In this document: positions 930 to 4,048 of the stretch, one piece after another
Numbering within the stretch: the stretch's first letter is position 1
Layout: each line of letters starts with the position of its first letter
Source: Patescibacteria group bacterium
Lineage (GTDB): Bacteria; Patescibacteriota; Patescibacteriia; Patescibacteriales; Patescibacteriaceae
Direction of reading: 5' to 3'
Length of the DNA: 64,000 nucleotides
Assembly: GCA_028704945.1 (NCBI GenBank)
Contig: JAQWEL010000002.1
Coordinates: 124,001 to 188,000, forward strand
Program-made: the position numbers and the translations under genes
The notes under the pieces: generated by a model
Seen by the model: only the letters and a program-made list of their open reading frames with translations
Database searches by the model: none
What the model was told of the DNA's origin: nothing

Positions 930-2423
930 ATGATCCCAGCTTATATTGAAGAAATTATCAGCCGCTTGAATGCTCAAGGTTTTGAAGCGTATGTTGTCGG
1001 TGGCAGCGTACGTGATTTATTAATGGGTAAAACACCTAAAGATTGGGATATAACCACCAACGCCAGACCAGAAAATATTTTGGAAATTTTTCCTGACTCA
1101 GTTTATGAAAATTCTTTTGGAACAGTAATTGTTAAAAAAAAGAATGAGGCTGGCCAGACGACTGAAATCGCCGAAGTTACTACCTACCGTTCCGAATCAA
1201 ATTATTCAGACCATCGCCGTCCAGACACGGTTGTTTTTGAAGATAGGCTTGAAGCTGATTTATCACGTCGAGATTTTACAGTTAATGCCATGGCGTTAAC
1301 GCCGGTAACTGACAGCGGTGGAATGCAGCTCGGAGAAGGGGAATCGATAATTGAGCTTGACGGAGAAGCTTACAAGATTATTGATTTTTACGGCGGGCAG
1401 AAAGATATCCATAAGCGAGTTATTAGAGCAGTCGGCGAACCTAATATCCGTTTTAAAGAAGACGCGCTGAGAATGATGCGGGCGGTTAGATTCGCTTGCC
1501 AACTCGGTTTTGATATTGAGCCAAAAACTGAACGGGGAATTATTAAATTAGCCGGTTCACTAAAATTTATTGCTAATGAAAGAATCAAAGATGAGTTGAT
1601 TAAAATTTTAGAAACCGACAAAAGAGCTTTTGGCTTTGACAAGCTTCATGATCTTAATTTGTTGAATTATATTATTCCAGAATTAGAAACTGGTTTTAAT
1701 ATGAAACAGAATCATCATCATATTTACACTGTTTTCGAGCATTCCTTGAGATCTTTGCAATGCGTGCCTTCAAAAGAATGGCAGGTCAGATTGGCTGCGC
1801 TATTACATGATGTTGGCAAGCCAGCGGCTAGAAAAATAATCGACGGCCAAACAACTTTTTACAATCATGAATATATCGGAGCTAAAATGACTAAAAAAAT
1901 AATGTCTCGGCTTAAATTCCCAACGGCTGATATTGAACGGGTTGTTAACTTAGTCAGAAATCACATGTTTTATTACAATGTTGATGAAGTGACTGCGGCG
2001 AGTGTCAGACGTTTGATTGCTAAGACCGGTCGAGAAAATTTAAAAGATCTGATTGATTTACGGGTAGCTGATCGCTTAGGTTCAGGCACGCCCAAAGCCA
2101 TGCCTTATAAGTTAAGGCATTTGCAATATATGTTTGAAAAAGTTCAAAATGATCCTGTTTCCGTTAAAATGCTTGCTATCAATGGTGATAATCTGATTAA
2201 TGACTTGAAGTTAGAACCGAGTCCTAAATTCGGTTGTTTGCTTGACTGTTTATTAGCCGAAGTTTTAGACAATCCTGATTATAATACCAAGGATTATTTA
2301 TTGAAGAGAGCAGAGGAATTGCTAAAAGAAGATTTGGAAACTTTGCGTACTAAAGCTAAGGGTGTTATTGAGGAAAAACAAGAAGATGAAGATCAATTAA
2401 TTAAAAAACAATATAAAGTTTAA
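930..2423 (+). CDS. cca: CCA tRNA nucleotidyltransferase / poly(A) polymerase family with HD domain
   Basis: The 497-aa protein opens with the class II nucleotidyltransferase core: GGSVRDLL at 24-31 and the catalytic DWD at 38-40, then RRDFTVNAMA at 113-122 and the RNA-binding domain. An HD phosphohydrolase domain follows, with LLHDVGKP around 291-298. It should add or repair the 3' CCA of tRNAs. That is needed here because the tRNA-Ala and tRNA-Pro genes in this window do not encode CCA. It lies 3 bp after a small membrane protein gene and 6 bp before the cyclophilin gene. A poly(A) polymerase role cannot be excluded from sequence alone. Confidence 0.93.
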   Translation: MIPAYIEEIISRLNAQGFEAYVVGGSVRDLLMGKTPKDWDITTNARPENILEIFPDSVYENSFGTVIVKKKNEAGQTTEIAEVTTYRSESNYSDHRRPDTVVFEDRLEADLSRRDFTVNAMALTPVTDSGGMQLGEGESIIELDGEAYKIIDFYGGQKDIHKRVIRAVGEPNIRFKEDALRMMRAVRFACQLGFDIEPKTERGIIKLAGSLKFIANERIKDELIKILETDKRAFGFDKLHDLNLLNYIIPELETGFNMKQNHHHIYTVFEHSLRSLQCVPSKEWQVRLAALLHDVGKPAARKIIDGQTTFYNHEYIGAKMTKKIMSRLKFPTADIERVVNLVRNHMFYYNVDEVTAASVRRLIAKTGRENLKDLIDLRVADRLGSGTPKAMPYKLRHLQYMFEKVQNDPVSVKMLAINGDNLINDLKLEPSPKFGCLLDCLLAEVLDNPDYNTKDYLLKRAEELLKEDLETLRTKAKGVIEEKQEDEDQLIKKQYKV

Positions 2424-3324: not shown

Positions 3325-3397
3325 GGGCCTGTAGCTCATTTGGTAGAGCGCTGCATTCGCATTGCAGAGGTGGTGAGTTCGAATCTCATCAGGTCCA
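3325..3397 (+). tRNA. tRNA-Ala (anticodon CGC)
   Basis: The cloverleaf folds by eye. The acceptor stem GGGCCTG pairs with CAGGTCC (one G-U). The anticodon stem CTGCA/TGCAG encloses loop TTCGCAT, giving anticodon CGC (alanine, codon GCG). The T-arm is GTGAG-TTCGAAT-CTCAT, with discriminator A at 3397. CCA is not encoded: the next bases are CAA. It probably depends on the CCA-adding enzyme encoded at 930-2423. Confidence 0.95.
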
Positions 3398-3420
3398 CAA
3401 AATTGAGTTAATTAACAATT

Positions 3421-3472: not shown

Positions 3473-3805
3473 ATGCTTATAATACGCTGGATTATTTCCG
3501 CTTTAACAATTGTTTTAGCCACCTATATAGTACCAGGAGTATTTATTGCTAGTTTTTGGTCGGCCCTGTGGGTGGCCGCTTTATTAGGTTTTGTCAACGT
3601 AACGATTAAACCATTATTGATTATTTTAACCCTGCCTTTAAACATTTTAACCCTGGGTCTATTCGCTTTGGTTATTAATGCTTTTATGATTATGTTAATT
3701 TCTGGTTTAGCTAAAGGATTTAGTGTTGATGGTTTTTGGCAAGCCTTGATTTTCGGAGTTGTTTTGGCTATACTCAATTTTGTTTTCAGTTTTGGTAAGG
3801 AATAA
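3473..3805 (+). CDS. YvlD/4-TMS phage-holin-superfamily membrane protein
   Basis: A 110-aa, almost wholly hydrophobic protein with about four membrane segments. Its pattern (LPLNILTLGLFALVINAFMI followed by a glycine-containing loop and a last helix) is characteristic of the YvlD family, often labelled phage holin family protein. These are widespread chromosomal membrane proteins of unclear function, so the name is no sign of a prophage. No other phage gene is nearby. It precedes the tRNA-Pro locus by a few bases. Confidence 0.8.
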   Translation: MLIIRWIISALTIVLATYIVPGVFIASFWSALWVAALLGFVNVTIKPLLIILTLPLNILTLGLFALVINAFMIMLISGLAKGFSVDGFWQALIFGVVLAILNFVFSFGKE

Positions 3806-3858
3806 TGGTTTCGGGCCATGGTATAGTGGTATTATGCACGATTCGTTCGCCCTTTTGT

Positions 3859-3929
3859 CGGGGCATGGTATAAAGGTATTACACACGATTCGGGTTCGTG
3901 TAATCCCGGTTCAATTCCGGGTGCCCCGA
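3859..3929 (+). tRNA. tRNA-Pro (anticodon CGG)
   Basis: The acceptor stem CGGGGCA pairs perfectly with TGCCCCG (3922-3928), with discriminator A3929. The anticodon stem CACGA/TCGTG carries loop TTCGGGT, so the anticodon is CGG (proline, codon CCG) with G37, as usual for tRNA-Pro. The T-arm is CCCGG-TTCAATT-CCGGG. The D-arm is short (GTA/TAC). CCA is not encoded. The gene sits inside the two halves of a degenerate tRNA. Confidence 0.9.
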
Positions 3930-3951
3930 CAAAGATGCGAACATTGGTTCG

Positions 3952-3971
3952 CCTGCCTGCCGGCAGGCAGG
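3952..3971. repeat. Perfect 20-bp GC palindrome inserted in the tRNA-like 3' half
   Basis: CCTGCCTGCC followed by its exact reverse complement GGCAGGCAGG. This palindrome type recurs in CPR genomes and often inserts into genes, giving LPAGRQ-like peptides; here it interrupts the anticodon region of the degenerate tRNA. Function unknown. Confidence 0.75.
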
Positions 3972-4007
3972 TGCGACCCCGGTCCAATTCCGGGTGGCCC
4001 GACAATT

Positions 4008-4031
4008 AAACCGTCTTTTGGGCGGTTTTTT
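4008..4031 (+). terminator. Intrinsic terminator of the tRNA-Pro locus
   Basis: AAACCGTC, a short T-rich loop, then GGCGGTTTTTT: a 6-7 bp hairpin followed directly by a T-run. Confidence 0.8.
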
Positions 4032-4048
4032 GTTATATTAACAAAGTG

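Follow-up and report, generated by a model that had tools for sequence, protein, structure and literature searches.

A proline tRNA gene nested within another proline tRNA gene, and the recurrence of such nests among Patescibacteria

Why should a complete tRNA gene lie between the two halves of another tRNA gene for the same amino acid, and what would have become of each of them? The question is raised by a locus (positions 3812-4002) in a 64,000-nucleotide stretch of DNA, hereinafter the window, from a Patescibacteria genome assembled to 984 kb in 13 contigs. On its upstream side, the nest adjoins the gene of a Phage_holin_4_2 family membrane protein (3473-3805), with tRNA-Ala(CGC), the usual neighbor of tRNA-Pro(CGG) in this order, at 3325-3398; directly 3' of the nest is a terminator-like hairpin (4008-4034; a consensus match only) with a 9-bp stem and a T-rich tail. 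All these features are on the forward strand.

The core of the locus is an intact tRNA-Pro(CGG) (3859-3930), called by both ARAGORN and Rfam (59.1 bits in Rfam), which has the cloverleaf and the proline anticodon and is, accordingly, predicted to be a functional tRNA-Pro. It is the only Pro(CGG) gene found in the source genome, with Pro(TGG) on contig C8 and Pro(GGG) on contig C11. The outer tRNA is called by neither program. Its 5' half (3812-3845) comprises the acceptor strand CGGGCCA, the D-arm, the 5' anticodon stem GCACGA and the loop up to G35 (TTCG), and its 3' half resumes with G36, G37, T38 and the stem segment TCG (3946-3951), to be completed, after an interruption, by the stem segment TGC, the variable loop, the T-arm CCCGGTCCAATTCCGGG, the acceptor strand TGGCCCG and A73 (3972-4002). 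The pairing of CGGGCCA (3812-3818) with TGGCCCG (3995-4001), pointed out in the first-pass annotation, extends over all seven pairs; because the outer acceptor is thus fully paired and differs from the inner one (CGGGGCA/TGCCCCG) by one whole base pair, both outer halves belong to one tRNA. Each half is linked to the inner tRNA by 35-nt direct repeats that are 86% identical. The outer anticodon stem, given in the same annotation as TGCAC with GTGCG, has to be shifted: in the correct register, GCACGA (3836-3841) pairs with TCG (3949-3951) and TGC (3972-3974), which are split by the palindrome CCTGCCTGCCGGCAGGCAGG. This GC palindrome of 20 nt (3952-3971), also noticed at the outset, interrupts the outer anticodon stem on its 3' strand and is dispersed in Patescibacteria, with another copy in the source genome and many in related genomes.

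To restore the outer tRNA, both 3846-3945 and the palindrome have to be deleted. The segments 3812-3845, 3946-3951 and 3972-4002, when joined, make a sequence of 71 nt that ARAGORN calls as tRNA-Pro(CGG), with a normal anticodon loop and with 61 of the 71 positions identical to the inner tRNA. The inner unit therefore sits exactly between anticodon nucleotides 35 and 36 (35|36), which makes precise the earlier claim that a complete tRNA-Pro(CGG) is contained in the outer anticodon arm. The inner tRNA is flanked by a 5' arm, TTCGCCCTTTTGT (3846-3858), and a 3' arm, AAAGATGCGAACATT (3931-3945); the bracketing sequences are complementary, GTTCGC..TTTTGT (3845-3858, including G3845) pairing with ACAAAG..GCGAAC (3929-3942) in a continuation of the inner acceptor stem, and GCGAAC can pair either with 3845-3850 or, alternatively, with 3947-3952. 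Folded as RNA, 3811-4003 is predicted to adopt the nested structure, with an energy of -97.5 kcal/mol and z = -6.3 versus dinucleotide shuffles, and the nested D-arm pattern matches once in the window compared with 0 matches in 100 shuffles. The insert is also flanked by a direct repeat of 10/11 nt, ATTCGTTCGCC (3841-3851) and ATTGGTTCGCC (3943-3953), which could be a target-site duplication and, if so, would put the palindrome in place before the arrival of the inner tRNA; inspection of the other nests by eye revealed no repeat of this kind.

The exact 35|36 junction and the normal anticodon loop of the joined window exons are compatible with the insert being an intron, such that the outer tRNA would be spliced and both tRNAs would be used. 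This possibility appears highly improbable, given that the outer tRNA of the window retains the 20-nt palindrome in its anticodon stem, that several outer tRNAs of other nests lack T33 (with loops CGCG, CACG, CATG and TGCG), that a cmscan search of the window and 16 nest loci against Rfam returned tRNA only, with no ribozyme or intron family, and that the exons would be broken if RNase P excised the inner tRNA. The internal loops were also considered as a bulge-helix-bulge (BHB) intron, a reading that was rejected, the central helix being missing by eye.

The nested arrangement is not confined to the window. Among 84,980 species genomes, a search for two tRNA-Pro D-arms of which the second begins before the first has its T-arm, a pattern tuned to Patescibacteria-like tRNA-Pro that detects only nests with a well-kept outer D-arm, yielded 59 stretches; since L092 is a protein repeat, L095 is a tandem pair and L106 holds two nests, the count comes to 58 nests besides that in the window (59 altogether), all from Patescibacteria or from metagenome-assembled genomes labeled 'bacterium'. 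TGG, CGG and GGG all occur as inner anticodons. Of 380 genomes sampled from the phylum, four have a Pro nest, two AT-rich chance matches apart, and about 99% of the sampled Patescibacteria genomes have no detectable Pro nest; no match to the nested pattern was found in viral contigs. In L106, two consecutive nests, with CGG and GGG, occupy 1414-2010 of a single genome's locus, and the T-loop of the first outer tRNA contains a further long hairpin with the arms GCCCCGCACCATTTC and GAAATGGTGCTGGGG. Nearly all the source genomes were assembled from metagenomes, which is the one reason to suspect an assembly error, a caveat raised at the start; the recurrence of nests in dozens of independent assemblies, the existence of diverged syntenic nest pairs and the five nests of tRNA-Thr described below render this explanation very unlikely, to the point of being negligible.

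An outer 3' half could be identified for 41 Pro nests, including the window, and in 34 of these its acceptor strand pairs 7/7 with that of the 5' half, a count to be read in light of the search by acceptor match, which favors pairing outers. In 36 of the 41, the outer acceptor is not the same as the inner one. These numbers bear on the origin suggested in the first-pass annotation, recombination or deletion among tandem tRNA-Pro copies that left two flanking halves. Such an event would account for the resemblance of the outer halves to the inner tRNA, and Pro-Ala-Pro tandem clusters are present in the order, but outer acceptor strands that are complementary to one another and distinct from the inner ones speak against it, and it leaves unexplained the complementary arms, the fixed 35|36 point and the triple nest L102 (see below), so that we consider this origin most improbable.

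The comparison with relatives that had been proposed gave the following picture. Most members of the order that were checked have a plain tRNA-Pro(CGG), often beside tRNA-Ala(CGC), and in several relatives, what appears to be the same kind of holin-family gene precedes it; an uninterrupted tRNA-Pro is found in relatives at the syntenic place, and nests recur there as well, in the second genome of the genus (G001, locus L078) and in G045 (L081), with arms that differ from those in the window. The outer anticodon stem of the G045 nest is perfectly paired over 22 bp, and the inner tRNA caps this helix.

With a second D-arm pattern, five loci with tRNA-Thr inside tRNA-Thr (L137, L146, L147, L148 and L149) and no other isotype were identified, the isotype specificity resting on these two D-arm classes. 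One of these nests (L137) occurs in a genome that also has a Pro nest, and the other four come from 379 sampled genomes. The insertion point is 35|36 in L148 and L149 and the variable loop in L147; L146 has the outer 5' half only. Apart from the two AT-rich chance matches in the Pro search, the two D-arm searches produced nothing beyond Pro and Thr nests. Non-Pro tRNAs are seldom enclosed by leader-trailer inverted repeats, although a few strong ones exist; two of these, with no recognized outer tRNA, surround tRNA-Gly(TCC) in L091 (5965) and tRNA-Ala(CGC) in L081 (739, minus strand).

The arms are complementary within each nest but not between nests. The pairing score of the two arms within a nest has a median of 11.8 and is at least 8 in 50 of the 59 nests, compared with a median of 5.9, and at least 8 in 87 of 697 pairings, for arms taken from different nests (p = 1e-24); by this statistic, the arms are terminal inverted repeats such as delimit MITE-, REP- or RPE-like elements. 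Because the arm sequences vary widely among nests, no single element family can be defined. The inserts also match their targets: nucleotide 34 of the outer tRNA is that of the inner anticodon in 18 of the 26 readable outers, whereas 10,000 shuffles gave 7.9 on average and 16 at most. Insertions of a hairpin without a tRNA into tRNA-Pro were found in 0 of 380 genomes, and arm hairpins devoid of a tRNA were found in one of 27 genomes. No arm-tRNA-arm unit was detected anywhere but inside tRNA genes, nor are there multiple dispersed copies of it in the source genome, where just the 20-nt palindrome has another copy, and no transposase, integrase or reverse transcriptase is seen among the immediate neighbors of the nests. 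Stand-alone palindromes of the arm family exist in L145 (G491, Jorgensenbacteria CG23_54_14). In this locus (approximately 1400-1660, minus strand), a GAPDH gene lies behind two N-terminal fragments, MARVGINGFGR and MARIAINGFGR, both cut at the same codon by an arm-family palindrome (CCCCGCACCAAAA..), after which the full gene follows; possibly, this is the same insert-and-restore process in a protein-coding gene.

Some nests are layered. L102 is a complete triple nest, whereas its syntenic relative L069, 71% identical over 1,155 nt from the nest into the downstream region, is a double nest, and because the two are syntenic, the inner tRNA of L069 represents the uninterrupted state of the middle layer of L102. 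Of the seven substitutions between the outer insert of L069 and its counterpart in L102 (L102-O0), six make up three compensatory pairs, one per hairpin, the seventh is in a loop, and no pair is broken. In L104 and L119, which are syntenic on both sides, there are two compensatory doublets, together with two pairs that are broken in one of the loci only. L079 and L094 were considered as another orthologous pair and excluded from this comparison, as BLAST of their flanks gave no support for synteny. Just 3' of the outer 3' half, these otherwise non-syntenic loci share a segment of about 65 nt that looks, by eye, like this half in inverted orientation, with a palindrome inside.

The conservation of pairing is pronounced in class B, a subgroup of nests with three hairpins, of which P1 bears the inner tRNA at its tip and has arms that continue directly from the inner acceptor stem. 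Over 15 nests, 94% of the P1 pairs are kept, through many pair types, compared with 61% (74% at most) after shuffling; for P2, the respective values are 99% and 69%, and P3 is visible in the RNA folds. Together with the three compensatory doublets and the absence of broken pairs in L069/L102-O0 and, less cleanly in view of the two broken pairs, the doublets in L104/L119, this conservation is what one would expect if the composite were a working RNA, in which the outer tRNA-like body, together with the helical arms, would keep the inner tRNA in place or see to its processing, for instance through RNase III or RNase P acting on a long helix, so that the nest would be kept by selection. The three compensatory pairs of L069/L102-O0 count against the outer layer being a dead relic, unless they were brought about by template-switch correction. 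Selection on the composite is hence a serious alternative, albeit one that we regard as distinctly unlikely: about 99% of the sampled Patescibacteria genomes do without a detectable Pro nest, and parts of the composite structure have been lost in some nests.

The acceptor stem of the inner tRNA is fully paired in every nest with a complete sequence, and in some nests, the outer 3' half or the arm pairing is gone while the inner tRNA is intact. C1 or G2/G3 is missing in eight outers, palindromes are found in T-loops, variable loops and D-loops, and the T-arm or the anticodon stem has been lost in some cases; L090 resembles L123 without the outer 3' half, which is the pattern expected from recombination between the inner and outer 3' ends. 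The initial suggestion that the outer tRNA is a pseudogene agrees well with the palindrome-broken anticodon stem in the window and with outers elsewhere that lack C1, the T-arm or an entire half. Two other loci contain fragments of related appearance: in L019 (G028, 1400-1800, minus strand), an outer T-arm and acceptor come after a tRNA-Pro, the 20-nt palindrome lying in the T-loop, and no outer 5' half is recognized, and in L018 (G016), about 100 nt upstream of a tRNA-Pro, there is a degenerate tRNA-Pro-like copy with the anticodon arm replaced by the palindrome CCCGCCGCGGCGGG.

An origin by local fold-back duplication, in which the tRNA gene would fold as a hairpin during replication and a strand would switch templates at the anticodon loop, copy a tRNA and return to its own flank, so that the nested copy ends up between perfect inverted arms and subsequent changes in one arm are passed to the other by quasi-palindrome correction, is the other serious alternative, unlikely in our estimation. 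It fits the class B arms, which prolong the inner acceptor stem without a break, it would yield compensatory doublets in orthologous nests with no need of selection, and, judged by eye, the inverted copy of the tRNA 3' half downstream of the nests in L079 and L094 is in its favor. The identical or nearly identical inner and outer bodies of L079, L074 and L102 fit such a duplication as well as they fit an incoming cassette. However, in the fresh-looking nest L079, the arms are, by eye, unlike the outer flanks, and neither the arm families shared across isoacceptors nor the finding of nests for Pro and Thr only is explained by template switching.

The explanation that we favor, evenly balanced between acceptance and doubt as it is on the available sequences, is that an arm-tRNA-arm cassette was inserted into a resident tRNA gene for the same amino acid, at its anticodon loop. 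We infer the mechanism as follows: a complete tRNA gene at the tip of a hairpin, between an arm and its complement, would enter the anticodon loop, usually at 35|36, and the inner tRNA would take over as the working gene, whereas the outer one, the former working gene, would become a relic that decays as point changes accumulate, as palindromes enter its loops and as recombination with the inner tRNA removes one of its halves. The hairpin cassette would then act in the manner of small palindromic elements (MITE- or REP-like), and would persist at this site only if the tRNA that it carries can stand in for the broken one. A cassette that is tolerated because it replaces what it breaks would explain the matched isoacceptor, the absence of hairpin-only insertions, the layered nests and the decaying outers. 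More tentatively, and with considerable doubt on our part, the cassette might be a self-propagating minimal element, consisting of one tRNA gene and two complementary arms, that invades Pro and Thr anticodon loops and supplies the replacement tRNA, successive invasions giving rise to loci built like Russian dolls.

The nests amount to site-specific, repeated, in-place replacement of essential tRNA genes, and the ordered outer, middle and inner layers allow one to study how a tRNA gene dies. They pose the question of whether a parasite carries its own antidote or replication makes a hairpin-specific error. There is also a practical aspect: tRNA finders miss or mislabel such loci, calling the inner tRNA only, and reads of tRNA halves from the respective cells have to be interpreted with care. 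To our knowledge, a tRNA gene within another tRNA gene of the same amino acid has not been described; full-text searching of the literature covered found no description either, which does not prove absence.

Among known systems, Rickettsia palindromic elements (RPE), REP/BIME and MITE resemble the nests in being short dispersed palindromes inside genes, with inverted terminal arms, and in that members of the arm family also occur alone, as in L145. Integration of RPEs has been described for unrelated metabolic (protein) genes (PMC10969869). Unlike these elements, the hairpin of a nest carries a complete tRNA with the amino acid specificity of the interrupted gene, and no multicopy family of arm-tRNA-arm units was found. 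With tRNA introns, both the bacterial group I introns (PMC3984707) and the archaeal and eukaryotic BHB introns (PMC4090602), the nests share a fixed insertion point in the anticodon loop, but the insert is a tRNA with simple arms, with no ribozyme match and, by eye, no BHB geometry, and the outer tRNA is often unable to yield a normal anticodon loop. Nor does removal of the insert leave a usable tRNA, considering that in the window the palindrome must go too and that many outers have no T33 or no T-arm. In permuted, split and disrupted tRNA genes (PMC3978253, PMC3218864, PMC4390854), the tRNA gene is likewise in separated pieces, whereas the halves of a nest keep their usual order, and an intact second tRNA gene lies between them. 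In the window, they are neither reversed nor at separate loci, the 5' half preceding the 3' half within 191 nt. A further comparison is with mobile elements that integrate in tRNA genes and restore the tRNA. As in the nests, a tRNA gene is targeted and its function is preserved by the cargo of the element; in the nests, however, no adjacent integrase gene and no attachment-site fragment are seen, and a whole tRNA replaces the target from inside the anticodon loop.
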